Of a DNA stretch of 32,493 nucleotides, positions 2,109 through 32,228 are shown in pieces. Position 1 is the first letter of the stretch; each line of letters begins with the position of its first letter. The stretch is taken from the IMG/VR virus record IMGVR_UViG_3300043395_001432, positions 1-32,493 of that record; one strand, 5' to 3'. This DNA is from a virus. A program made the translations under genes and the position numbers. Below the pieces are notes generated by a model, which made no database searches, was not told the origin of the DNA, and was given only the letters and a program-made list of their open reading frames with translations.

Positions 2109-5100
2109 TTAGCCCTCTACTGCGTCTGGAGACTCTTCAAACTGCACTGCGCCCAACGGAGACTGAATAACCTCTACTTCAACGACTTGGAATGGCTTGG
2201 CTTCCTGCGTCTTCGTCCATACAGCTACAATAACTGCCCCCGTCAAATCGTCTGCAAGGTCGGCGGACAGCTTGCCCTTGCGGTCTGGCCACAACACCGA
2301 GCTATAGCGTGCGGAATCAACGTCCAGTACCAATTCCATGGCCTCCTTGTCCCCGCCGTAGCGGAAGCGGCGGCTGGACACTACGTAGGAAGCCGTGGCT
2401 ACCGTGTACGGGCCGACAAAAGGAGTGAGCGTATTAAGATGGTCAATAAATCGAGGAGGAGCAAAGCGGGCCTTCTTGTTCCCGTACCTGTACACCCAAA
2501 GTCCGTTCGCTTCAAGAACAATCTGCGGGTGGTTGAGGATTGGTAGCAGGGGCTGGCTGTAGGCCGGGAGGATGGCCTTGCGCATCTGGTAGCGCACCAG
2601 CGGAGACAGGTTGATGAACTCTGCCTTGACCTTGACCGGCTTCTTGCCTGACACCTGTGCCACTACGCGCTCGTACTGCTCCAGCATGTCATTGGTGTCC
2701 GACATGCCCGGGAACAGGCTGTCCATGGCCCCGGAAACAACGAGCTTGTACACCACACCCCGGTTGAGGGCAGAATGACCCATCTTCTTGGCCATGACCA
2801 CAGTCTCGGCCCCGGTCTTCTTGTCCTTCTTCTTCTTTTCGACCATGGTCGCCAGCTTCTCTCGACGGTTTTGTACCTTTTGCACAAACTCCTCTAGGGA
2901 GGCAAACGGGCGTAGTTCGCACATCTCCTTGTGCGCCCCCTCGCCAATCCCATGGAGCAGGGACAGCGGGGCCTGAATGCGCTCCCCTACAATCTCAAAC
3001 TGGTCCCCGGACTTGGAGATATCCGGCAAGTCAATGAGGTGACCGCAGTGCTTCCAAAACTTCTCGTTCACCTCGTCCTTAGAGGCGTTGCGGAGCACCG
3101 CCGTCCACCACTCCAGCGGGTAATGGTACTTGAGGAACGCACAAGCGTAGCCAATCAGGGAATAGCAGACGGCGTGACTTTTGTTGAAACCGTATCTACC
3201 AAAAACCTGAAGAAAGTCCCATAGCTGGCGAGCGCCTTCTTCTCCCAACTTGGCGATTGCTCCGGGCATGAACAGGTCGCGGTGCTTGAGGACCTTGGCC
3301 ATCTCCTTCTTAGCAATATCTCGCCGGAACGCTTCCGCTTGGTCAGCGGTAGTGCCGCCAATCTCCCGGAACGCATACTCCAGTTGCTCCTGATAAACAA
3401 TAATCCCGTAAGTCTCAGGGAAAAGCTGGTCAAGGAGAGGCATGCGCCCATATCCTTGCTCGCCCTTGGCCCGCTTGGAATACTCCACGAGCATGTTGTG
3501 GACCGGTTGCTCTAGGTCGTCCATTACCATTGCGTCCAAAGGCCCCGGACGGTCTAGGGCGGTGAAGGCAGCCAATGACTCAATAGAGTCCAGCGCCTTG
3601 TGCCCAGAGCCGTCCGATTTCAAGAAGTTGAACTCCTTCAACCACTTCTTTGCTCCGTCCGTGTTAAACTGAAACACGGTGTCGGTCTCGCTCCGACAAA
3701 TCGTGTCATATACCGACTGGTCGTCCGGCAAGTCCCATACATCGTACAGCTTCCCGCCAAAAGGAACCACGCGGTAGTAAGGTACAGCGCGGCCATTGAG
3801 AGTGTACGTGCCTTCAATCTTTTCGGAGGCCCGAGAACGAATGAGCTTCAGGGCCTCGGAAATGTCGAGCAACGTGTTCAGCCCGAGGAAGTCCATCTTC
3901 ACGCCCCCGGACTTCTCCACGGGGCCAGCCGTGTACTGGGTGACGCGAACGTCACTGACTAGCTGGAGGGGAATGAAGTTGGACACGGGCTCGTCCGTGA
4001 CCACGTAGGCAGAGGCGTGGCGACCCTTGTTGCGAACTACGCCCAAGCACTTGACCACAATATCCCACTGCTTGGGGTACTTCGCAATGTACTCCTTCAA
4101 AAACTCGTCGGTTTCGATAGCGCCCTTGACCCAGCCGTCCGCGCCATCGTAGCCAAAGACGTAGTCCCGGTCGGAAATGCCCTGCGGGGGCATGGCCATC
4201 TTCTTCGACAGCTTCTCAATCTCGTCCGGCACCTTGCCGTAGGTAGCGCGGGCCACGTCCTTGATGGAAGACTTGACCTTCATCGAGGTGTCAACCGAAA
4301 TCTGAGCGTAGCACTCGCCAAACCGCTGCTTGAGCCAGCCCTTGTCCGGGTCCACAAGAATGTCCCGGTTCGGCAAGTCCATATCAATATCGGGGAGCTT
4401 GCCGGAAAGGATACGAGTCTTCGTCAAGAACCGGTCCATGGACAGGTTGTAACGAAGCGGGTCCGCGTGGGTAATCCCCAGCAGGTAGGTGAGCAGCATG
4501 CCCGCTGCCGAGCCACGGCCCGGACCCGTCAACTGCTCCTGTGCCGCAAACTGGGCAAGGGCCTCCTCTGCGAGGAAGAAATAGGGGAGCAGGTCAATCT
4601 TCCCGTTGCCCTGAATCATCGAGATTTCAGCCTTCAGCCGCTCCACATACTTCTGGTTCGTCCAGTCCATCCGCCCGTGCTTGTCAATCAGGGCCTTGAG
4701 GTGGCCGAGCGTGTTGGTCGGATAGAACGACTTCGGCAAGGACACTCGGTCATTAAACTTGAAGCCCTTGAACTGCTCCGCCCATGCGTGGCTGTTGTCA
4801 ATCCAGCCCTCAAACGTGGCGCGGTCAGTCTTCATGTACTGGGCAAAGTAGGCGAACGCCTCCTCGCTCGACTGCCGGTGGTAGTTGCCGTAGAACTTAA
4901 AATTGTCGCCCATGGAGGCAAGGCGAATCTCCTGCACAATCCGCTCGTCCGGGTGAGCGTAGTGGGAGTCGTCCGAAATGAGAATGCGGTGGCCGTACTT
5001 GCCCGCAAAATACTGGACAACGCGGTTGCAACCTAGCTGGACGTCTCCATCCGGAGCCCATGGGCGGCACTCGTTGGGCATGAAGTCCGAAATCTTCTTG

Positions 5101-5885
5101 ACGCCCACGATGACCTTGTTGCGCTCATCCCACTTGCTGTAGTTTTGCACAGCAAGCAGCCGGTCAGTCTCGTGCCCCTTGCGACCGAACGACTTCGCAA
5201 GGTCAATGGCCTTGATTTCGCCACCCTTTTCGGTGTTCAGGCCCTTGTTGTCGTAGAACTTGTCAACCGAATTGTCCTCGTAGGTAACGAATACCCCGTT
5301 GACCCAGTTCTTGTCGCAACGGTGCGGGAAGACCTCTACAAAGAAGTGGTCCGGCTTGACGATTTCCGAAAGCCGCCGGTAATACGCCTCGGCAATATCC
5401 ACGCGGTTATGGTTCAGGACGTGGCGCTGGACCATTCCAATCAGGCAACCCGAGGTGAAGGTGACGTTCTGGGCACCGATTTCTTCAAGGTCCCGCCAGT
5501 TGAACAGGGGCTTGAGTTCAGACCCGTGGCGCTCTACCGGAGCCTTGGACAGTAGCCGCACGATAATCTCGTAAGCGGCTTGGTCCAGAGCGTGAATGGT
5601 AAGGTGGTAATACTTGTTGTACTTCTTCGCGTCCTGAATGCCGAACGACTTCAGGATGGGGCACTCTGCGTCAAAGAAGTACGCCTCAATTCCCAGAATG
5701 GGAGTCAGGCCCTTGGCCTTGGCGAGGTCATAGACCTTCCGTGCGGCCCCAAGGCTGCCATGGTCGGTGACAGTCAAGTACCCAGTGCCAAGCTCCAGTT
5801 CGCGCTCTGCGAAGGCTTCCGGGGTGCTGCCAGAGTCGAGGGACTGGGGGTGAACGTGGGGCGAAACGAAGGGCTTGAAGGTCAT
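2109..5885 (-). CDS. dnaE: DNA polymerase III alpha subunit (DnaE-type, with PHP domain)
   Basis: Replicative C-family polymerase of 1258 residues, slightly longer than bacterial DnaE. Residues 1 to about 330 are a PHP domain: HVH (H10, H12), D17, TDHG (D41, H42), GIEAYF (E67), YHL (H94), a TSGC cysteine and a final SDDSHY. All the usual metal ligands therefore appear to be kept, unlike E. coli DnaE. The polymerase core has GPGRGSAAG, the catalytic PDIDMD pair, and the third carboxylate in GGVKMDFLGLN. The fingers motif GRYGFNKSHAVCYSLIGY is present, and an OB-like segment lies near the C-terminus. ATG 5885 lies just after a terminator and a GGTTATAG motif, so it probably heads its own transcript. 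No separate proofreading subunit of DnaQ type is seen in the window. Confidence 0.96.
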   Translation of the reverse strand: MTFKPFVSPHVHPQSLDSGSTPEAFAERELELGTGYLTVTDHGSLGAARKVYDLAKAKGLTPILGIEAYFFDAECPILKSFGIQDAKKYNKYYHLTIHALDQAAYEIIVRLLSKAPVERHGSELKPLFNWRDLEEIGAQNVTFTSGCLIGMVQRHVLNHNRVDIAEAYYRRLSEIVKPDHFFVEVFPHRCDKNWVNGVFVTYEDNSVDKFYDNKGLNTEKGGEIKAIDLAKSFGRKGHETDRLLAVQNYSKWDERNKVIVGVKKISDFMPNECRPWAPDGDVQLGCNRVVQYFAGKYGHRILISDDSHYAHPDERIVQEIRLASMGDNFKFYGNYHRQSSEEAFAYFAQYMKTDRATFEGWIDNSHAWAEQFKGFKFNDRVSLPKSFYPTNTLGHLKALIDKHGRMDWTNQKYVERLKAEISMIQGNGKIDLLPYFFLAEEALAQFAAQEQLTGPGRGSAAGMLLTYLLGITHADPLRYNLSMDRFLTKTRILSGKLPDIDMDLPNRDILVDPDKGWLKQRFGECYAQISVDTSMKVKSSIKDVARATYGKVPDEIEKLSKKMAMPPQGISDRDYVFGYDGADGWVKGAIETDEFLKEYIAKYPKQWDIVVKCLGVVRNKGRHASAYVVTDEPVSNFIPLQLVSDVRVTQYTAGPVEKSGGVKMDFLGLNTLLDISEALKLIRSRASEKIEGTYTLNGRAVPYYRVVPFGGKLYDVWDLPDDQSVYDTICRSETDTVFQFNTDGAKKWLKEFNFLKSDGSGHKALDSIESLAAFTALDRPGPLDAMVMDDLEQPVHNMLVEYSKRAKGEQGYGRMPLLDQLFPETYGIIVYQEQLEYAFREIGGTTADQAEAFRRDIAKKEMAKVLKHRDLFMPGAIAKLGEEGARQLWDFLQVFGRYGFNKSHAVCYSLIGYACAFLKYHYPLEWWTAVLRNASKDEVNEKFWKHCGHLIDLPDISKSGDQFEIVGERIQAPLSLLHGIGEGAHKEMCELRPFASLEEFVQKVQNRREKLATMVEKKKKDKKTGAETVVMAKKMGHSALNRGVVYKLVVSGAMDSLFPGMSDTNDMLEQYERVVAQVSGKKPVKVKAEFINLSPLVRYQMRKAILPAYSQPLLPILNHPQIVLEANGLWVYRYGNKKARFAPPRFIDHLNTLTPFVGPYTVATASYVVSSRRFRYGGDKEAMELVLDVDSARYSSVLWPDRKGKLSADLADDLTGAVIVAVWTKTQEAKPFQVVEVEVIQSPLGAVQFEESPDAVEG

Positions 5886-5894
5886 TTGCGGGGT

Positions 5895-5902
5895 CTATAA
5901 CC
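5895..5902 (-). promoter_or_regulatory. Candidate phage promoter motif GGTTATAG upstream of dnaE
   Basis: On the minus strand GGTTATAG lies between the terminator hairpin at 5914-5931 and the dnaE ATG at 5885. The core GTTATA is shared with seven other intergenic positions listed here. The role as a late or middle promoter box for the phage sigma-like factor is inference. Confidence 0.4.
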
Positions 5903-5913
5903 TGAAATGCGAA

Positions 5914-5931
5914 ACCCCGCTTTCGCGGGGT
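5914..5931 (-). terminator. Hairpin terminator between the 80-residue gene and dnaE
   Basis: A perfect 7-bp stem, ACCCCGC/GCGGGGT with a four-base loop, sits five bases beyond the stop of the gene ending at 5937 and is followed on the minus strand by TTTCGCATTTC. The T tract is weak on this strand (it is richer on the plus strand), so termination may be partial. Confidence 0.65.
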
Positions 5932-5936
5932 CTCTT

Positions 5937-6179
5937 TTAGTCCTGCACGTTCATCACTTGGCGAAGCTTGGCGACCACGTTTTGGTACATATCTTGCACT
6001 TGGTCTTCCGTCATCAACAGGGCTTGGGCCACAATCCGGTCTGGGCAGCCTTCGGGGTACCTCTCTAGCAGGCGGCTGAGCGAATACTCAAACCGTTTGA
6101 GGCAGATGTAGTCCTCGTCGTCAATCAGCCGGGTTCGGGCTTCGTTCAACGCTCTCGGTAGTGGTAGATTTGTCCCCAT
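5937..6179 (-). CDS. Small protein resembling sigma-70 region 4.2 (possible gp33-like co-factor)
   Basis: Eighty residues. The last 45 (IVAQALLMTEDQVQDMYQ, then NVVAKLRQVM) align by eye with the sigma-70 region 4.2 helix-turn-helix: a small hydrophobic helix, M-T-E-x-x-V turn and recognition helix, then V-x-K-L-R as in A-L-x-K-L-R of sigma factors. The N-terminal half is helical and charged. This matters because the sigma-like factor at 20703-21725 ends right before region 4.2. In T4, gp33 supplies the region-4 function for gp55. Start ATG 6179 overlaps the upstream gene by 34 bases. It could instead be an unrelated helix-turn-helix protein; the reading is moderate to low in certainty. Confidence 0.7.
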   Translation of the reverse strand: MGTNLPLPRALNEARTRLIDDEDYICLKRFEYSLSRLLERYPEGCPDRIVAQALLMTEDQVQDMYQNVVAKLRQVMNVQD

Positions 6180-6541
6180 TGACTTAGCTCTTTTTTGTAC
6201 TTGTTCAGTTCTTTTTCGAGGTTTTGGACCGCAAGCTGAAGGCTGTCTCGGGCTGCGGTGTGTCTATGTAGCTCGTCTTTCAGCCATTCAAGGTTCTTCA
6301 GGGTGTCCTTGATAAGCTTGCGGGCATCCCTGTATTTTTCTAGCATGACAACCTGCGCTTCGCTCTTCAAGAAACGCAGATTGTACTTAGCGATACTCAA
6401 AACCTGCTTGGCTTCGTCCTGTCTTCGCTTGACCGATGCTACTTCCGTGGTCATGGCTGCCAAAACGGACTTGGCCTCTTGAATTTCGTCTGCTAGGTCT
6501 TCGATGGCCGATTCGATGGTGGCGTATTCACTCTTGGTCAT
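6146..6541 (-). CDS. Coiled-coil protein, unknown function
   Basis: A 131-residue, almost entirely helical protein with heptad-like spacing of Leu, Ile and Val (for example IESAIEDLADEIQEAKSVL and LQLAVQNLEKELNKYKKEL), predicted to form a long coiled coil. No catalytic motif or membrane segment is seen. Its ATG overlaps the stop of the metallophosphoesterase gene (ATGA), which points to translational coupling. Its own 3' end overlaps the 80-residue sigma-4-like gene. Confidence 0.8.
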   Translation of the reverse strand: MTKSEYATIESAIEDLADEIQEAKSVLAAMTTEVASVKRRQDEAKQVLSIAKYNLRFLKSEAQVVMLEKYRDARKLIKDTLKNLEWLKDELHRHTAARDSLQLAVQNLEKELNKYKKELSQWGQIYHYRER

Positions 6542-9518: not shown

Positions 9519-9526
9519 TATAACGC
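9519..9526 (-). promoter_or_regulatory. Candidate phage promoter motif GCGTTATA upstream of dut
   Basis: GCGTTATA on the minus strand lies 11 bases upstream of the dut ATG and about 10 bases beyond the end of the terminator hairpin at 9537-9564. That order, terminator then motif then start codon, is what a promoter would give. Confidence 0.5.
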
Positions 9527-9593: not shown

Positions 9594-11459
9594 CTACTTG
9601 ATGGGGCAACTTCCATTCTGGCACTCTAGACTATCGAGGTCGCTGCCACTCCCCACCGCATCTACGTTCACCGGGGAGATTTTGGAAGACAGCTTCTCAA
9701 ACTGCTCCTTCGTGATGGCTTCCTTCGGAGCCTGCTTGAAACCATGCTCGGAATGGCAGAGGAACGAAATGGTCTTGAGGTACTGGAGGTTATCGGCAAG
9801 CCACTTCTTCAGTTCCGGTAGCTCTTCCCGCTTGTAATACACGGTCACCGAAACCGCTTGGTCGGCCCAGTGCTTCTGAGCCATCCTGAGCACATCTAGC
9901 TGCTGCCAAGTGGTCCAATTTTCGTCTGCTACAGGAGCACCTTCGGGAGCCTGCTCGTAGAAGTCAACCACCACGGTGTTGTGGTCGAGCGTACCATCAA
10001 AGCGCACCACCGGCTCAATATGGTGACCCGCAGCAGCAAGCAAGGGGACAAGCGGGTCCGCAGAAGAGAAGCGTACACGCTGGATGTAGTACCGGCTGTA
10101 GGCTGCGTGGATGCCTTCGTACCCGCGCATATCATACATCTTGGAGATGGTCCCGGACGGCTTGATGACCGTGGTGCGGATGGACTCGGGGATGCCTAGC
10201 TCACGGCTGTACTTGACATTCTCGTCCTGAATGGCCGCATACGCCCGGTCGAGATGCTCCGGGGTAAACAGCGGGCTCTGGAGACAGCCGGTAATGCCAG
10301 TCCCAATGCGCCGGTTGCGCTTGATGACCTCGTCGCACTTGGGCTGGTGGTACTTCTCCATGGTTACCCGCTTGCCCCAACGGTGCATGAGCCGACCGGC
10401 CTCTACAAACTCGTCTGGGCTGGCGATATGGGGTAGGGCAATCTCCTGTAGATTGCAGGGCTCCCCGTCCTCCAGCGTGGCCTCTGCGCAGGGATTGACT
10501 ACGATGGCCGAGTCCTTCTTCAACTCGCCCATACGCCCGTACTTCTGGATGTTGGTACGATTGACAATACCAAACGGCTCGCCCTGCTCGTAGGTCTTCC
10601 AGAACAGCGGGTGCAGGTCCTCTACGTCATCCACTACTACGCTGAAATTCGCCATGGCCCGTTGGGTGGGGATGGGGCCGAGGTCCCAACGCTTGGCCTT
10701 GAGGTATTCCTTGTCGAAAGCGTCACCAAGAATGATAATAGCAGAGCGGCGCACGTTACCCGCTACTACCATCTCGCCAATTGAGCAGAGAATGTCTGCT
10801 GCGTCAATCGGGCGAATGGAACGGCCTTCCCGGGCCTGTAGGATGGCAGTCAGCTTCTCAATGTAGTTGATGAGAGGGAGCGGGCCAGAGGCGGTTCCAC
10901 CAAAGCCCTTGATGACCTCCCCGGCCCCACGAATGACGACCGTGGAATACTCTACAGACTTGCCTGTGACGAAGAATGCCTCCAGCACGCGGCGGGTAAG
11001 TTCGCACCAGCCTTCCCGACTGTCTGGGACAATGAATGAAGCGTCCTTGGTGGACTTGTGGACCACCTTGACGTTCTTTTTGACCTTGGGGAGCTTGGAG
11101 ACGAAGCGGTGCTCTACGCTCATGCCCACGCCACCACCCAGCATCAGGAGGTCCTGCGCAAGCACGAAGTTGTACCAATCGTCCCCAGTCACGCCCCAGC
11201 AGTTAACCAGAGCCGCTCCGCCCAGAGTAGAATGAGAGGGAGCGCCCGAGAACCAGTACCCACGGCCCGCAGGGCCCGCCTTGCGCTCGGTCAGGAAGTA
11301 GCGCAGGCGATTGATTTCATTCTCTGACAAGTTGTGCCCACGGACATTCCCGCCGATGACACGCTCTACCGTATCATTCCAAGACTCTACAAAACCGAAG
11401 TCCTTGCGGGCGTAGGTGCGCTTGAAGACTACTGATGCTAGGTTACTCCAGTCAGACAT
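9594..11459 (-). CDS. nrdJ: Class II (adenosylcobalamin-dependent) ribonucleotide reductase
   Basis: Reduces ribonucleotides to deoxyribonucleotides using B12. It resembles the monomeric Lactobacillus-type triphosphate reductase: VNCWGV near residue 87 holds the first redox cysteine; NPCAE followed 11 residues later by PCNL gives the thiyl cysteine, glutamate and second redox cysteine at the family spacing; and the C-terminus ends with a CxxxxC pair (ECQNGSCPIK) for re-reduction. At about 621 residues it is shorter than the 739-residue prototype. Two in-frame ATGs occur (11465 and 11459); 11459 is chosen because AGGAG lies 8 bases upstream, whereas it is only 2 bases from 11465. It sits between the resolvase and dUTPase genes. 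No small subunit gene is needed or seen. Confidence 0.93.
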   Translation of the reverse strand: MSDWSNLASVVFKRTYARKDFGFVESWNDTVERVIGGNVRGHNLSENEINRLRYFLTERKAGPAGRGYWFSGAPSHSTLGGAALVNCWGVTGDDWYNFVLAQDLLMLGGGVGMSVEHRFVSKLPKVKKNVKVVHKSTKDASFIVPDSREGWCELTRRVLEAFFVTGKSVEYSTVVIRGAGEVIKGFGGTASGPLPLINYIEKLTAILQAREGRSIRPIDAADILCSIGEMVVAGNVRRSAIIILGDAFDKEYLKAKRWDLGPIPTQRAMANFSVVVDDVEDLHPLFWKTYEQGEPFGIVNRTNIQKYGRMGELKKDSAIVVNPCAEATLEDGEPCNLQEIALPHIASPDEFVEAGRLMHRWGKRVTMEKYHQPKCDEVIKRNRRIGTGITGCLQSPLFTPEHLDRAYAAIQDENVKYSRELGIPESIRTTVIKPSGTISKMYDMRGYEGIHAAYSRYYIQRVRFSSADPLVPLLAAAGHHIEPVVRFDGTLDHNTVVVDFYEQAPEGAPVADENWTTWQQLDVLRMAQKHWADQAVSVTVYYKREELPELKKWLADNLQYLKTISFLCHSEHGFKQAPKEAITKEQFEKLSSKISPVNVDAVGSGSDLDSLECQNGSCPIK

Positions 11460-11471
11460 TGCCATTTCTCC

Positions 11472-12982: not shown

Positions 12983-12989
12983 TATAACG
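12983..12989 (-). promoter_or_regulatory. Candidate promoter motif CCGTTATAAG before the 102-residue gene
   Basis: The minus-strand CGTTATA core sits in the short gap between the Rad50-like stop (12991) and the gene starting at 12946, leaving a leader with a Shine-Dalgarno sequence. It matches the motif before the Rad50-like gene over AGCCGTTATA. Confidence 0.45.
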
Positions 12990-15040: not shown

Positions 15041-15047
15041 TATAACG
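15041..15047 (-). promoter_or_regulatory. Candidate promoter motif CCGTTATAGG before the Rad50-like gene
   Basis: The minus-strand AGCCGTTATAGG lies 7 bases upstream of the ATG at 15033, between it and the stop of the small gene ending at 15049. If it is a -10-like box, the transcript would be nearly leaderless. Alternatively it contributes to the AGGTGA ribosome site. Confidence 0.4.
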
Positions 15048-16040: not shown

Positions 16041-16047
16041 TATAACC
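16041..16047 (-). promoter_or_regulatory. Candidate promoter motif GGTTATATA after the chaperonin gene
   Basis: On the minus strand AGGTTATATA lies between the GroEL-like stop (16053) and the start at 16031. It shares GTTATA with the motifs before dnaE, dut and others, but the flanking CG is replaced by GG as in the dnaE copy. Confidence 0.35.
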
Positions 16048-16052
16048 TAGCT

Positions 16053-17846
16053 TTAGTCCAAGTTGGTAGGGTCAATCATTCCGCCGTCTCGGAGATACTG
16101 ATTCGTCTCCCGAGCTTCAGTACGCTCTAGCTCTGCGTCACGCTTAAACACTACCGCGCCACCCAGAGTGCCTAGCAGGCCCGCAATGGAAATAGAGTTG
16201 CGGATGGCTTCTAGGACAGCAGGCGTGGAGTCTAGTAGACCGCCACTACGAGCATCCACGTACTGGAAGTTGAGAGCGTCATAAGCAGAGGGCTCATGTC
16301 CAGCAGTAATCCGATTGCCCACTGTGTGAATCGTATCATTGATTTCATCCTGAGACATGCCCGCATTCTGGAGCAGACGGGTTACCGGGGCAAGCAGGGC
16401 GGGACGGAGAACCGCGTCCACGACCTCGTCGTTCAGCGCCTTAAGCTCGCTGTGAAGCTTGATGAGGGTCCAGCCGCCACCGGGAAGGGTGCCGTGCTTG
16501 ATGGCTCCACGAACCGCTGCAACAGCGTCCTCGGCGCGGTCCCGCTTCTCCCTGAGTTCTCCACTGGAGGGACCGACAACCTTCAGCTTGGCAATGCCGC
16601 CGGTCAGCTTACCAATACGCTCGTTGAGGATAGCGGTCTCGTAAATCGAGGTCTCCTGATTGAGCAGGCTCTTTAGCTGGTCCACGCGGTCCAGTACCGT
16701 CAACTCGTTGAGCGGCGTGCCGTCCGGCATGTGCCCGCACATCACGGAAGAGCGGAAACGGCCGCACTCAAAGTGCTTTGCCTGTAGCCCAATGTCGTGC
16801 AGGGTGGCTACGTCGAACGGCTTGTTGAGCGGGTCGAGGATGGTAGCGCCTGTGTAGGCGGCTACGTCCTGTAGGAACGCAAGCTCGCTGCCCTGTACAG
16901 CGTTCTGGGGAGCAAGCAGCGGAAATACGTTGATGCTACCAATCTCAGCGAAATTGGTGGCGAGGTTTGCCAGCACGGTGTCGGAGAACCCAGTCGCCAC
17001 CAGCACGATGTTGTGGCGGAAGCCGTCAGTCTGCCAAGCACTACCAATCTCGGAGAAGAACTTGATGAGCGTCTGGATATCCGTCACTCGCCCATGGTAA
17101 CAGACAAAGGCGGGGTTCTCCATCTTGCACATTTGCGTGCCGGGGTCGTTGATGAACTTCCCATAGAACTTGCCGCAGGAGTCCTCGTACCCCATGCCAA
17201 TCGGGAAGCCCTCGATGCGCTCCACCTCGTAGGACGAAGGGCCGCTAATCTCCGAAATGGTCACGTTGCCGTCGTCGCCCACAAGCTCAAAGCACTGGAT
17301 GACGGCATTGGCAAGGGCCTCGTCTCCGTTGGCAGACACACGGGCAACCGAGCGCAGAGCCTCCTTGCCCTCCGGGGTATTAAAGTCCGCCTTAGTTGAC
17401 AGGCCGTTTATGGCCGGGGCAATGTTTGTGGTGAACACGCTCTCCAGCTTGCGGACAATCTTCTGCGGGCTGTACCGGGGATTCTTGGCTACGAACGAGT
17501 TGGAGTACCGGACAATCGCTTCGGCCAGTACAGTGGCAGTCGTAGTGCCGTCCCCTGCCTCGGTTGCTGTACGTACAGACGCATCCCGAGCGGTCTCCAT
17601 GATGACGTGCGCCACGGGGTCATCGAAACCCAAGTTGCGGAATACGGTCACGCCGTCCTTGGTGACCATGGCAGGCATACCAAACTCCTGCCGCTCAATC
17701 AAAACGGGCTGTCCACCCGGGCCGAGTGTTGAGCCAACGATATCCGCAATGGTCTTCATGGTGCTTAGCACCTTGTTTGACAGCGAGCCTCCCTTGACCT
17801 CGACAGCCTTGGAGACCGACTTTACCTTTGCGTAACTTGTTGACAT
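16053..17846 (-). CDS. groEL: GroEL-like chaperonin (phage-encoded)
   Basis: A group I chaperonin homologue of 597 residues (E. coli GroEL is 548). The nucleotide-binding motifs are kept: STLGPGG near the N-terminus, TKDGVTV, the hallmark GDGTTTATVLAEA with its catalytic aspartate, and the C-terminal RAEDAVAAVRGAIKHG with the second key Asp, then LPGGG. The apical region is divergent, and the C-terminus lacks the GGM repeats. It is the second gene of the leftward operon, three bases from the winged-helix gene, with GGAGTAG before its ATG. The likely role is folding a phage virion or replication protein that host GroEL cannot handle. A candidate GroES-like partner lies at 21757-22107. Confidence 0.95.
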   Translation of the reverse strand: MSTSYAKVKSVSKAVEVKGGSLSNKVLSTMKTIADIVGSTLGPGGQPVLIERQEFGMPAMVTKDGVTVFRNLGFDDPVAHVIMETARDASVRTATEAGDGTTTATVLAEAIVRYSNSFVAKNPRYSPQKIVRKLESVFTTNIAPAINGLSTKADFNTPEGKEALRSVARVSANGDEALANAVIQCFELVGDDGNVTISEISGPSSYEVERIEGFPIGMGYEDSCGKFYGKFINDPGTQMCKMENPAFVCYHGRVTDIQTLIKFFSEIGSAWQTDGFRHNIVLVATGFSDTVLANLATNFAEIGSINVFPLLAPQNAVQGSELAFLQDVAAYTGATILDPLNKPFDVATLHDIGLQAKHFECGRFRSSVMCGHMPDGTPLNELTVLDRVDQLKSLLNQETSIYETAILNERIGKLTGGIAKLKVVGPSSGELREKRDRAEDAVAAVRGAIKHGTLPGGGWTLIKLHSELKALNDEVVDAVLRPALLAPVTRLLQNAGMSQDEINDTIHTVGNRITAGHEPSAYDALNFQYVDARSGGLLDSTPAVLEAIRNSISIAGLLGTLGGAVVFKRDAELERTEARETNQYLRDGGMIDPTNLD

Positions 17847-18632: not shown

Positions 18633-18641
18633 TGCGTTATA
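18633..18641 (+). promoter_or_regulatory. Candidate promoter motif TGCGTTATA before the rightward operon
   Basis: CCTGCGTTATACAGGGGGT leads directly into the ATG at 18650. The same CTGCGTTATA is found before the gene at 21757. The GGGGG after it serves as the ribosome site, so a transcript starting a few bases after the box would have a very short leader. Confidence 0.5.
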
Positions 18642-20702: not shown

Positions 20703-21725
20703 ATGCCACTAATCGTAGACGACGAGCACTTCCAGTCATTCGCCTCTGTCCTAGAGCAGGCCATTGAGAAGTATGGCAACCTAGAAGAGGAGGACCTGCT
20801 TGCTCGGCAGAAGCGTCAAGTCGAAAAGCTGGTCAAGCTGGAGAAGGACTTCCGTAAGACCCTGATTGCTCATCCTTGGGGCGGAACTGTCTACAGGGCG
20901 TTTATTTCGATGATTTGTGATGAGCGCCGAAACATCTTGGCTGCTCGACCTTTCTTCCGAGAGCGCCAGCCTGTATTTACCCAGAAAATCTCCAAGGCGC
21001 TTAAGAGCCGTAATGAGAAGGCTCTCCAAAAGTTTCATTTCAACTTTACCTTTGTCACCTTTGTGCTCAGGTCCCGTAAGTGGCCCAAGGGCAGTCAGAT
21101 TGTGAAGCTGGCCAAGGACATTGCTGACATTCGCCAAGAGATTATTGAGATGAACATGCCCTTGGCAATCAGCCGGGCAAGCATCTTCTGGCGCAAGACT
21201 CCCAAGGCCCAGCTTTCCTACATGGACCTTGTGCAGATTGCTTGTGAAGGGCTAATGTCCGCCGTGGACAAGTTCTGCCTGCCTTTCTCCCGGGTGTTCC
21301 GAGCCGTTGCGATTGGCCGCATGCTGGGGAATTTCATTGAGCAGTACAGTGAAACCTTGGTTCATTTCTACCCAGTTGACAAGCGCAAAATCTACCGCGC
21401 CAACAAGCTAATGAAGCATTTCCCGGATGGGGTGGACTTTGACTTGCTGGCTGCCGCTGTCAATAAGGAAGTGGACGACGGCCACCTTACCACCCCGGCT
21501 GAGATTGCGGACCTCCTAGCTGCCGCTTCGTGCGTTTCGACGGACACCTCTGCCCCCAACGACCCGGAAGAGTCTGAGGTGCTGGATACCTACGTGGCAG
21601 ACGTCACTTCGCAGCCTGACTACCAATACGAACAACATGAAGCTCGCCAAGTGCTGGCTTCTGCTCTAGGCAGCCTAGACCCGCTGGAGCGTAAGCTGCT
21701 CAAAATGAAGGGGATTTCGTTTTAG
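20703..21725 (+). CDS. Sigma-70-family-like factor lacking region 4.2
   Basis: A 340-residue protein. Residues about 151-220 match sigma region 2: NMPLAISRAS, then SYMDLVQIACEGLMSAVDKF, FSRVFRAVAIGRMLGNFIEQ, as in NLRLV..., DLIQEGNIGLMKAVDKF and FSTYA of bacterial sigmas. Residues 1-150 are a long helical extension with no known match. The last 26 residues (RQVLASALGSLDPLERKLLK, MKGISF) read like region 4.1, and then the protein stops where the region 4.2 helix-turn-helix should follow. T4 gp55, the late sigma, likewise lacks region 4. It probably directs RNA polymerase to the phage promoters. ATG 20703 lies 6 bases past the helicase stop, with no strong Shine-Dalgarno. Confidence 0.82.
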   Translation: MPLIVDDEHFQSFASVLEQAIEKYGNLEEEDLLARQKRQVEKLVKLEKDFRKTLIAHPWGGTVYRAFISMICDERRNILAARPFFRERQPVFTQKISKALKSRNEKALQKFHFNFTFVTFVLRSRKWPKGSQIVKLAKDIADIRQEIIEMNMPLAISRASIFWRKTPKAQLSYMDLVQIACEGLMSAVDKFCLPFSRVFRAVAIGRMLGNFIEQYSETLVHFYPVDKRKIYRANKLMKHFPDGVDFDLLAAAVNKEVDDGHLTTPAEIADLLAAASCVSTDTSAPNDPEESEVLDTYVADVTSQPDYQYEQHEARQVLASALGSLDPLERKLLKMKGISF

Positions 21726-21729
21726 TTTC

Positions 21730-21738
21730 TGCGTTATA
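21730..21738 (+). promoter_or_regulatory. Candidate promoter motif TGCGTTATA after the sigma-like gene
   Basis: CTGCGTTATAGAG follows the sigma-like stop by 5 bases and precedes the gene starting at 21757, which has a strong GGAGGAAG ribosome site. This placement in a 31-base gap argues for a promoter start, giving a leader of about 15 bases. Confidence 0.5.
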
Positions 21739-29606: not shown

Positions 29607-32228
29607 GTGCCTAAACCCAAGAAGCTCGCCAAGGCCCAGAAGAACAAGTCGCGCCCTAGCCTGCTAGGCAAGGGGGCAATCAAGGCCATTCATTCGGCCC
29701 TAGACAGCCTCTTTGATAAAATCAAGGCCCGTTTCCTTGGCCCCAAGTCTTTGGGCGGCAAGCAGATTCGGTTCACCTACGAGCGGCCACTATCAATCCC
29801 GGGCCTGTATGAGTCCGGGCTGATTGCGGACGGAGCCAAGCCCAACCTCGACACGCTGGACAGCCTTGTCCATGTGGCGGGCGGGTACGTGGATTCCCTC
29901 CGGGAGAACTCCAAGGCCAACGTAGTCCATACCATTCAATCGTTCATCCGGGACGCCCACCAGCGGGATATTCAGACCGACTTCCGTACCATTCTGGGCG
30001 GGCAGCTAGCGGACCTCTGGGCCTCCACCAGCGGCAAGCTGGAGAGGATTGTTGATACCGAGGCCACCAAGGTGCGCAATGTTTCAGCCCTTGAGGGCAT
30101 TCTAGAAATCAACGCCTCTAGGGGCATTGAAGATGCAGTGGTGTACTGGATTGTAGTGAAGGACGGGGCTTTGTGCAATGAGTGCCGCCGCCTCCATCTT
30201 ATGGGCGACGGGCACACACCCCGGCTCTGGTTCATGTCGGAAGTCAAGCAGGGCTACCATAAGCGCGGCGAAGATGCCCCGGCTATTGGCGGGCTGCACC
30301 CGCACTGCCTAACCGGCAACATGCGCATCCACACTGACCGTGGTATGCTGACCGCCAAGGAGCTTTTTGAGCAGGGCGGCAACCTCAAGGCGGTTGTGGA
30401 CGAGCGGGTCAAGGTTCGGCGTCAGGGCAACAACCAGTTTGGCGCAGAGCTAGAGGGCCAAGTGTGGTACCACCGCCACGCCTCCGGGGCTCGCTTGCTG
30501 GACGCAACTCACGTTTATGATACTGGCGTTCAGCCGTGTTACCGGATTGAGCTAGACTCTGGTCACGTTATCGAGGTCTCGGAAGGCCACGAAATGTGGG
30601 TGGATGACGGCAATGCTGGCGTCAAAATCCGTGCGGACAAGCTCAAGGTCGGAGACAAGGTTCCGTTGCTGTCCGGAGAGGGCGCTTTTGGCAGTGACTC
30701 TTTCCCAGAGCTTGCCGAGTTGATGGGCAACCTGATGGGAGATGGGACTCTAAACGACACTGCTCAATTCCATTTCTTTGGGGATGACATTGAGTACGGT
30801 CGTCACCTCAAGGCTATGGCCGCCAAGTTTAGCGACAGGCTGGACGGCGAGATGACCGTTTATCCACCGAATAACAAATACTCGGTAGACCACGCTACTT
30901 TCAATAGCCAAGTTCTGCGCCGTATTTTTGTGGAGGAGTTTGGGCTATCCAAGACCCCCCGTCGAGTTCCGGCACGAATTTGGGGCGCAGACAAGGCTAC
31001 CGTAGCTGGTTACGTTCGGGGTCTATTCGCGGCTGACGGGCATTCCGAAGTAACTCCATCGGTGGTATTGGCTCAGAACGATTCGGAGTTCCTGCGCGAA
31101 ATCCAAGCCCTGCTATCTAATTTTGGTATTCGTTCACGCATCTTTAAGCATGACGAAGCCATGCAGAAGACCATCACCTATGCCGATGGCTCTCAATACG
31201 TTACGGAGCGCAAAGAGTGCTGGCGTCTTCACGTCGGTGGCTGGGAACAGGTCAATCGTTTCGCTACCGAAATTGGGCTCGGCGTTCCCGCTAAACAGCG
31301 CAAGCTGCTAGAGCGCCTAGAGGCTACTAAGGAGAATGGACGCCACGGAGCGTGGCGTACTGCGAGGGTGCTATCCATTGCGTCTATTGGCGAACAGCAA
31401 ACCTACTGCCTAACTGAGCATAAGACCAATACCATCACGGTGAACGGTATTGTAACGGGCAACTGCCGGTGCAGCATGGTAACGCTGCTCCCCGGCTACG
31501 GCTTTGACGCTGGTGGCAAGGTGGAGTTCAAGAAGTTCGGCTACAACGCCATCAACGTCCAGCGCGGCACCAACAAGGCTGAAGACGCCTTCCCCGGCCT
31601 GTTGCTTGCCAAGGACGGCGAAGACGAGCACGATGCTGAAGACTTGGAAAAGGCTCTTCCGCCCTACAATCCGGCCACGGACACCTCGGACAAGGAGCGC
31701 CAGACAATCTCGGACTGGCAGAACTACGCCGATACCAAGTCCCGGAACGCCATCCCACGGCTTATTGGCGCAGGACGGGAGCGTGCCCTGCACAAGCTTC
31801 ATGGGAAGACTGAAGCTCGCCGTAATCCCACCACAGGCGAGCGCGAGTTCTTGCTCCACCGGGGCGTGGGGAACACGGACAAGCTCCAGATTGAGAACGG
31901 CGTAGTTTCACACAAGGGCGTGGGCTCGTGGACGTTTGACCCAGAGATTGCCCAGTCTTTTGGTAAGCGCCGCAAAGGAACGGTGTCGGCGTGGATTCCC
32001 GAAAGCGCCATCCACCATGTTCTAGACCAAGTCGGCTACGTCAACGACGGCGCTACGGCCGGGATACACGGCAACAAGCCCAAGCCGGGGATTTCGGTAC
32101 CGCACCCTACCGACCCCAACGCAATCCCACGGGCGATTGGCAAGCCCGGATACCGCGAAGGAGAGATTCTGGTAAAGCTGCCCAAGGGGGCACACGTCCA
32201 CAAGTGGGAGCCTAGCCCTCCCGCTTAA
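29607..32228 (+). CDS. MuF-type head protein fused to ADP-ribosyltransferase domain, with intein
   Basis: An 873-residue precursor. Residues 1-233 plus 620 onward form a MuF/SPP1 gp7-type head morphogenesis domain with a metal-binding set: C190-x2-C193 and HPHCRC (H231, H233, C620, C622). Between H233 and C620 sits an intein (residues 234-619). The mature, spliced protein would be 487 residues. The C-terminal part (about 740-866) resembles an ADP-ribosyltransferase: R752 in LLHRGVG, S774 in GSWTFDPEIAQSF, and E851-x-E853 in REGEIL. MuF proteins may be packaged with DNA, so this could be an injected effector. The start is GTG 29607 with AAGGGA upstream; no ATG fits. The ART call is by motif order only. 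Confidence 0.88.
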   Translation: MPKPKKLAKAQKNKSRPSLLGKGAIKAIHSALDSLFDKIKARFLGPKSLGGKQIRFTYERPLSIPGLYESGLIADGAKPNLDTLDSLVHVAGGYVDSLRENSKANVVHTIQSFIRDAHQRDIQTDFRTILGGQLADLWASTSGKLERIVDTEATKVRNVSALEGILEINASRGIEDAVVYWIVVKDGALCNECRRLHLMGDGHTPRLWFMSEVKQGYHKRGEDAPAIGGLHPHCLTGNMRIHTDRGMLTAKELFEQGGNLKAVVDERVKVRRQGNNQFGAELEGQVWYHRHASGARLLDATHVYDTGVQPCYRIELDSGHVIEVSEGHEMWVDDGNAGVKIRADKLKVGDKVPLLSGEGAFGSDSFPELAELMGNLMGDGTLNDTAQFHFFGDDIEYGRHLKAMAAKFSDRLDGEMTVYPPNNKYSVDHATFNSQVLRRIFVEEFGLSKTPRRVPARIWGADKATVAGYVRGLFAADGHSEVTPSVVLAQNDSEFLREIQALLSNFGIRSRIFKHDEAMQKTITYADGSQYVTERKECWRLHVGGWEQVNRFATEIGLGVPAKQRKLLERLEATKENGRHGAWRTARVLSIASIGEQQTYCLTEHKTNTITVNGIVTGNCRCSMVTLLPGYGFDAGGKVEFKKFGYNAINVQRGTNKAEDAFPGLLLAKDGEDEHDAEDLEKALPPYNPATDTSDKERQTISDWQNYADTKSRNAIPRLIGAGRERALHKLHGKTEARRNPTTGEREFLLHRGVGNTDKLQIENGVVSHKGVGSWTFDPEIAQSFGKRRKGTVSAWIPESAIHHVLDQVGYVNDGATAGIHGNKPKPGISVPHPTDPNAIPRAIGKPGYREGEILVKLPKGAHVHKWEPSPPA
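30306..31463 (+). other. Intein with LAGLIDADG homing endonuclease domain
   Basis: Residues 234-619 of the precursor, 386 residues. It begins with CLTGNMRIHTDRG (block A) and has a TYCLTEHKTNTITVNGIVTGN-type end that leads into Cys +1 of the C-extein. Block B is GHVIEVSEGHEMWV. Two LAGLIDADG-like motifs, LAELMGNLMGDG (369-380) and VAGYVRGLFAADG (466-478), mark the homing nuclease. The penultimate residue is Gly (G618), not His. Removing it restores HPHCRC exactly, confirming the insertion point. Splicing by family precedent is expected but not tested. Confidence 0.92.
31824..32204 (+). other. ADP-ribosyltransferase-like domain within the MuF protein
   Basis: Encodes residues about 740-866. 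Motifs in order: R752 (FLLHRGVG), S774 (SWTF), then REGEILVKLPKG containing E851 and E853. This R-S-ExE order is that of NAD-dependent arginine mono-ADP-ribosyltransferases such as T4 Alt-like and bacterial toxins. Spacing between S774 and the ExE (77 residues) includes a Pro/Gly-rich loop, so the fold should be checked. No signal sequence. Confidence 0.6.

Follow-up and report, generated by a model that had tools for sequence, protein, structure and literature searches.

Can a phage sigma factor that stops before region 4.2 have its missing part supplied by a separate gene? The window analyzed here, a virus record of 32,493 bases (IMG/VR IMGVR_UViG_3300043395_001432), raises this question through two genes lying far apart on opposite strands:

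5937..6179, minus strand: small helix-turn-helix (HTH) gene, candidate region-4.2 subunit of a split sigma; 80 aa, ATG start
20703..21725, plus strand: sigma-70-type factor of 340 aa (counted from the ATG) that spans regions 1.2 to 4.1 and stops at the 4.1/4.2 boundary

An earlier note on this DNA had proposed that the small gene encodes a stand-alone protein resembling sigma region 4.2 and the very part that the opposite-strand factor lacks. Our analyses suggest, with a probability that we put at roughly 0.58, a two-gene sigma working like the gp55/gp33 pair of phage T4, to which it is not detectably related.

Two complementary genes

The 340-aa protein is a member of the sigma-70 family, with regions 2 to 4.1 recognizable by both sequence and fold. 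A profile of its family aligned with Escherichia coli RpoD at an E-value of 3e-8, the last aligned residue being M567, and with SigA at 9e-9; residue ~567 corresponds to the end of region 4.1. The AlphaFold model (mean predicted local distance difference test score, pLDDT, of 81) can be superposed on sigma-70 chains as far as residue 566 (Z ~12), and Foldseek matched it to Thermus SigA at E 3e-5. In all 36 viral loci that the sigma profile detected, a set that includes several near-duplicates and two copies carrying an inserted intein (L058 and L059), region 4.2 is absent and the stop codon falls at most 20 residues after a KLLRLKG-type motif, which is a variant in L060. The sigma factor of the nearest named relative of the window, Myxococcus phage Mx1 (169,621 bp; cultured on Myxococcus xanthus, PMC10720576), likewise stops just after region 4.1, as do five of six sigma loci from bacterial assemblies, the sixth (L100) having unreadable bases close to the end. 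In the truncated protein, the last part of region 4.1 is still conserved, with L325, K331, and L333 invariant. The precise cut between regions 4.1 and 4.2 that the earlier note had considered is thus borne out by the conserved stop and by the end of the RpoD alignment.

Searching with the single sigma protein returned no relatives, whereas an alignment-based search did find them; among phage records, the best match outside the clade was the RpoD-like sigma of Microcystis phage MaAM05 (26%, E 2e-3), which, unlike the window sigma, continues through a complete region 4.2. A six-frame search of 11 records, including the complete Mx1 genome, found no protein reaching the Pfam cut-off for region 4, and in two of these records the small gene was itself a weak Sigma70_r4 match. 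Weak region-4-like matches in G017, G036, and G014 proved to be other proteins, one of them a LuxR-like 77-aa ORF (open reading frame). Separately, the sigma genes L058 9959-12241 and L059 427-2709 contain an in-frame insert of ~400 codons in the region that reads the -10 element, and the L058 copy contains an intein splicing domain according to Pfam.

The small ORF is real, as the earlier note had it: the residues quoted there, IVAQALLMTEDQVQ...VVAKLRQ, are present in the 80-aa translation of 5937..6179 (minus), and the ORF is placed beyond chance by its homologues in Mx1, in 18 of the 36 sigma-bearing viral records (profile built from five members), and in all three metagenome-assembled genomes having a related phage contig. 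Elsewhere in these three assemblies (1.6-5.9 Mb), no match to the small family was found at E<=0.1. The Mx1 homologue, at the same gene position with 38-40% identity, is an unannotated ORF of 76 residues from its ATG (38% identity to the window protein). Because most homologues begin at least 8 residues later than the ATG at 6179, the true start may lie downstream of it. The window DnaE, searched separately, was found in the identical 18 records, so that the small gene is present in every record covering the dnaE region (18/18), plus Mx1; DnaE was not matched in the remaining 18 sigma-bearing records, which may be fragments. We also looked for homologues of the small protein in phages with a complete sigma factor and encountered none, all 36 sigma loci lacking region 4.2. 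One record from the first direct relative search, L003, was set aside, its ORFs being unrelated and the record without a sigma of this family. The Deltaproteobacteria assembly bog_1112 (L098-L101, L103, L105) contains several contigs with this sigma and two with the small gene, and therefore several related phages in one bin.

When the small family was aligned with RpoD alone, the aligned stretch was 576-601. The sigma factor ends at 567 and the small family starts at 576; therefore, the two genes are predicted to be complementary pieces cut at the 4.1/4.2 boundary, in keeping with the proposal that the small protein is the part missing from the opposite-strand factor. As two genes that jointly cover sigma domains and are conserved together, they constitute a putative split sigma.

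Fold class and charge of the small protein

Profile comparison places the small protein, as a predicted HTH, in the sigma-4.2/LuxR class. In a first hhalign run with 20 members, a weak tie was obtained (14.0 for sigma and for LuxR; 2.5 for the reversed profile), and a second run, with four more members and 150 shuffles, gave scores of 26.4 against 30 bacterial region-4 sequences (shuffle maximum 17.2, reached or exceeded in 0/150) and 26.7 against 30 LuxR HTHs (shuffle maximum 17.1, 0/150). Column shuffles destroy helix periodicity, and the reversed control is the fairer one; it returned P values of 0.48 and 0.061, against 2.3e-4 and 1e-4 for the forward profiles. The small family and sigma region 4 align without a gap across 29 columns, which begin at the first HTH helix and run through to KLR. 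The resemblance to region 4.2 seen by the earlier note therefore stands at the level of the HTH class, the match to region 4 exceeding every shuffle, while the tied LuxR scores make the identity as sigma 4.2 a candidate one; the sequence does not separate the two, and it is the complementary truncation of the sigma factor that favors sigma.

The recognition helix has lost basic DNA-reading residues. At the positions of sigma-70 R584, R586, and R588, acidic residues occur in 20, 20, and 17 of the 24 family members; of these, R584 and R588 are basic residues that read the -35 element in sigma-70. The mean charge of the first ten helix residues is -3.5 in the small family versus +2.0 across all 30 sigma sequences; for the LuxR helix it is +1.35, computed over the 20 of 30 sequences that contained the search pattern. 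Hydrophobic positions are retained along with the KLR end, and the combination of an acidic helix with a kept hydrophobic core speaks for a fold that would have been preserved while -35 reading was lost. Because the reading helix is acidic where that of sigma is basic, the small protein probably reads no -35 box. T4 gp33, for its part, is described as not recognizing DNA sequence (PMC2988020), and its acidic residues are reported to face the zinc-binding domain of the polymerase (PMC7892883).

Gene neighborhood and candidate promoters

The small gene lies in a conserved neighborhood, which in the window comprises:

2109..5885, minus strand: DnaE-type DNA polymerase III alpha, constant downstream neighbor of the small gene
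5911..5934, minus strand: 10-pair hairpin directly after the small gene (-20.3 kcal/mol, z -5.1), a probable transcription terminator
6146..6541, minus strand: 131-aa protein, probably coiled-coil, upstream of the small gene with a 34-nt overlap

In all 18 records, the small gene is upstream of dnaE on the same strand, with 15 to 1,019 nt between the matches (coordinates read by eye). The gene order of Mx1 equals that of the window, namely a phosphatase, a gene sized like the coiled-coil one (142 aa, at the position matching that of the 131-aa gene), the small ORF, and dnaE. Further along the window, a 597-aa ORF (16053-17846, minus) sits where Mx1 has a gene annotated as a GroEL-like chaperone, and a ribonucleotide-reductase-like ORF (9594-11465, minus) corresponds in position to genes annotated in Mx1 as class Ia alpha and beta; no beta gene was recognized by eye beside the window ORF. 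An 873-aa ORF (29607-32228, plus), after a portal-like gene, carries an intein splicing domain and a LAGLIDADG-like domain.

Upstream of the window genes, GTTATA was the most over-represented hexamer, occurring in 6 of 13 regions delimited by a crude gene caller (expected 0.11) and in 6 of 15 hand-listed regions (expected 0.13, P 5e-9, or ~2e-5 after correction for 4096 hexamers). The sites are found on both strands, including one immediately ahead of dnaE and another immediately behind the sigma gene:

5896..5902, minus strand: GGTTATA, candidate phage -10-like element before dnaE
9519..9525, minus strand: CGTTATA, candidate -10-like element
12983..12989, minus strand: CGTTATA, candidate -10-like element
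15041..15047, minus strand: CGTTATA, candidate -10-like element
16041..16047, minus strand: GGTTATA, candidate -10-like element
18635..18641, plus strand: CGTTATA, candidate -10-like element heading the gene run that holds the sigma gene
21732..21738, plus strand: CGTTATA, candidate -10-like element immediately behind the sigma gene

Related phages have CGCTATA (G003, G008), CGTTATA (G005), or CAATCTT (G004, Mx1) as their motif. In the three motif sets, of 20, 11, and 14 sites, TTGACA-like boxes at the right distance were not in excess, with at least 4 matches in 2/20, 0/11, and 2/14 sites against shuffle rates of 17, 16, and 21%; some of these sites were hand-picked from listings, and the two positive controls were chosen for showing TTGACA. 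Information content upstream of the core (14, 10, and 13 sites) is close to zero except for a T two bases before the G003/G008 core. A start-proximal motif without a -35 box fits a -10-only code that this sigma factor would read, as judged from few sites. The CAATCTT phages (L018/L052, L004) share a distinct -10-reading stretch in their sigma factors (GRITGDLVE with NSETL), where other loci mostly have GR..GN.IE, as if the motif and its putative reader had changed together. Besides its -10-only class, G003 has two perfect TTGACA-N17-TATAnT sites (L008 18078 and 17554, minus), which look like host-type promoters and may be early ones used by the host sigma. An ATG lies 6 nt past the end of several YAATCT motifs in Mx1 (L004 7604 and 36550, L166 26276, L167 22392); if YAATCT is a -10 element, these motifs would give leaderless late mRNAs.

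A probable sigma factor in two parts: alternatives and parallels

In the favored explanation, a sigma function would be encoded by two separately placed phage genes. Binding to RNA polymerase and recognition of a -10-like element would fall to the 340-aa protein, and the 80-aa HTH protein, expressed along with the replication genes, would replace region 4.2 in trans, so that both together would complete domain 4 on the tip of the beta-flap. The acidic face of the small protein would then serve as a flap cap without reading a -35 box, and its place among replication genes could couple late transcription to replication. The joint action, the flap binding, the timing, and the reading of the motif by sigma are inferred.

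Several results weigh against this explanation. The constant neighbor of the small gene is dnaE, not the sigma gene, and the interaction between the two proteins is putative. A Pfam scan of the window protein was empty, and none of 19 family members passed the Pfam cut-off, the best Sigma70_r4 match having E 0.039; among the weak families over these 19, LuxR/GerE (4) and Sigma70_r4 (3) were the commonest. The LuxR-type HTH profile matched as well as that of region 4, and a profile search of the PDB with the small family listed a designed protein first (E 8e-4, probably by chance) and the NarL HTH second (E 0.0017), with sigma factors appearing only at E above 1. The structural model is confident (mean pLDDT 90.5; helices 9-20, 34-40, 47-53, and 58-75), but its fold searches were weak, with VIA Z at most 2.5 for the HTH part only and no Foldseek match at E<=0.001; T4 gp33 was missing from the rows of these searches, which is uninformative either way. 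A comparable motif was not prominent in most other records tested, and the Mx1 motif ranked 123 in the blind ranking; its count of 15 in 35 upstream regions (expected 1.1) is post hoc, the motif having first been spotted by eye, and some of these regions fall inside upstream genes. The presence data are compatible with function and with common descent alike. Nor do we count as proof the correlated divergence of the two proteins (r 0.63, 0/2000 permutations, 20 pairs, leaving out the intein-bearing G034, while records without the small gene could not enter), which common descent would lead one to expect.

These points leave room for other explanations. The small protein might be a replisome accessory binding the DnaE polymerase or the clamp, with a sigma factor that has lost region 4.2 and works without a substitute. 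We consider this unlikely, although it is the alternative that deserves most attention, given the invariable position beside dnaE on the same strand (18/18) and the acidic helix. Against it stands the match in HTH class and exact register between the small protein and sigma 4.2; four DnaE phages from other, distant lineages had no homologue at a distance of up to 8 kb from dnaE, and T4 gene 33 likewise lies among replication genes. Somewhat less probable still is an independent LuxR-type regulator, binding DNA or another protein and unrelated to sigma. The tied or slightly better LuxR scores agree with it, but an acidic reading helix argues against DNA binding, and the small gene occurs in every record with both the truncated sigma and the dnaE region.

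T4 AsiA is the model for a phage protein acting on host sigma, and a small acidic helical protein could in the same way remove host promoters from play while the truncated sigma works alone; some relatives do have host-type TTGACA promoters that could be shut off later. The match is to sigma region 4 itself and not to a partner of region 4, which makes this action on host sigma improbable. As for an artifactual or spliced origin, whereby the short sigma would reflect a sequencing error or the two genes would be joined by trans-splicing, the chances are negligible: the same sigma end recurs in 36/36 loci and Mx1, no 4.2-like reading exists in three frames after the sigma stop, and the next start codon follows 31 nt after that stop, so that sequencing error is ruled out by the conserved stop and trans-splicing by lack of room.

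The two-gene sigma thus preferred has several parallels. In T4, the separately encoded gp55 and gp33 are described as substituting for sigma domains 2 and 4, with gp33 sitting on the beta-flap and late promoters without a -35 element (PMC2988020, PMC7892883). The division of sigma functions over two separately encoded proteins and the lack of a -35 box would be common to both systems, as are the place of gene 33 among replication genes (between dsbA and gene 59) and its overlap with the upstream gene, dsbA. The difference is that gp33 reportedly has no recognizable sigma homology and no structural relation to sigma region 4 (PMC2988020, PMC7892883), whereas here the small protein is predicted to be a 4.2/LuxR-class HTH and the large one retains the sigma regions through 4.1. 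The gp33 family is further marked by a C-terminal epitope for binding the clamp. With single T4 sequences, no similarity to gp33 or gp55 was detected; the small family gave no match to a single sequence of gp33, a fast-diverging protein (P 0.07, in another register). The T4 parallel drawn by the earlier note may therefore hold for the way of working but not for descent. In Bacillus subtilis, SigO and RsoA carry sigma domains 4 and 2 in separate proteins acting together and encoded in one operon, yvrI-yvrHa (PMC8103513); there the split lies between domains, whereas the present cut falls within domain 4, and the two genes lie at a distance from each other on opposite strands. SPO1 gp33/gp34, annotated as sigma factor and sigma factor accessory, are likewise two phage proteins, but gp34 holds, in our reading, its own region-4-like end, and SPO1 gp33 did not match the small family.

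Split sigmas as such are already known; what is new here is where the cut lies and that the small piece would still belong to the 4.2/LuxR class of HTHs. Searches of a PMC library without preprints and most subscription papers turned up no account of such a split or of the promoters of these phages. More tentatively, and with less confidence than in the two-gene sigma itself, we can picture a clade of large phages in which sigma was cut at 4.1/4.2 and the freed 4.2 HTH became an acidic, non-reading flap cap, giving a -10-only code that would take two keys to operate and, possibly, an evolutionary bridge from an ordinary sigma to the T4-type gp55/gp33 pair. For annotators of such phages, the result would offer a promoter motif and a missed gene. 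A review of T4 late transcription raises the question why gp55 and gp33 always come from separate genes, with no fused late sigma found (PMC2988020); a split at a recognizable sigma boundary, with a free HTH-like piece that would have lost its DNA-reading residues, would make that question directly testable.
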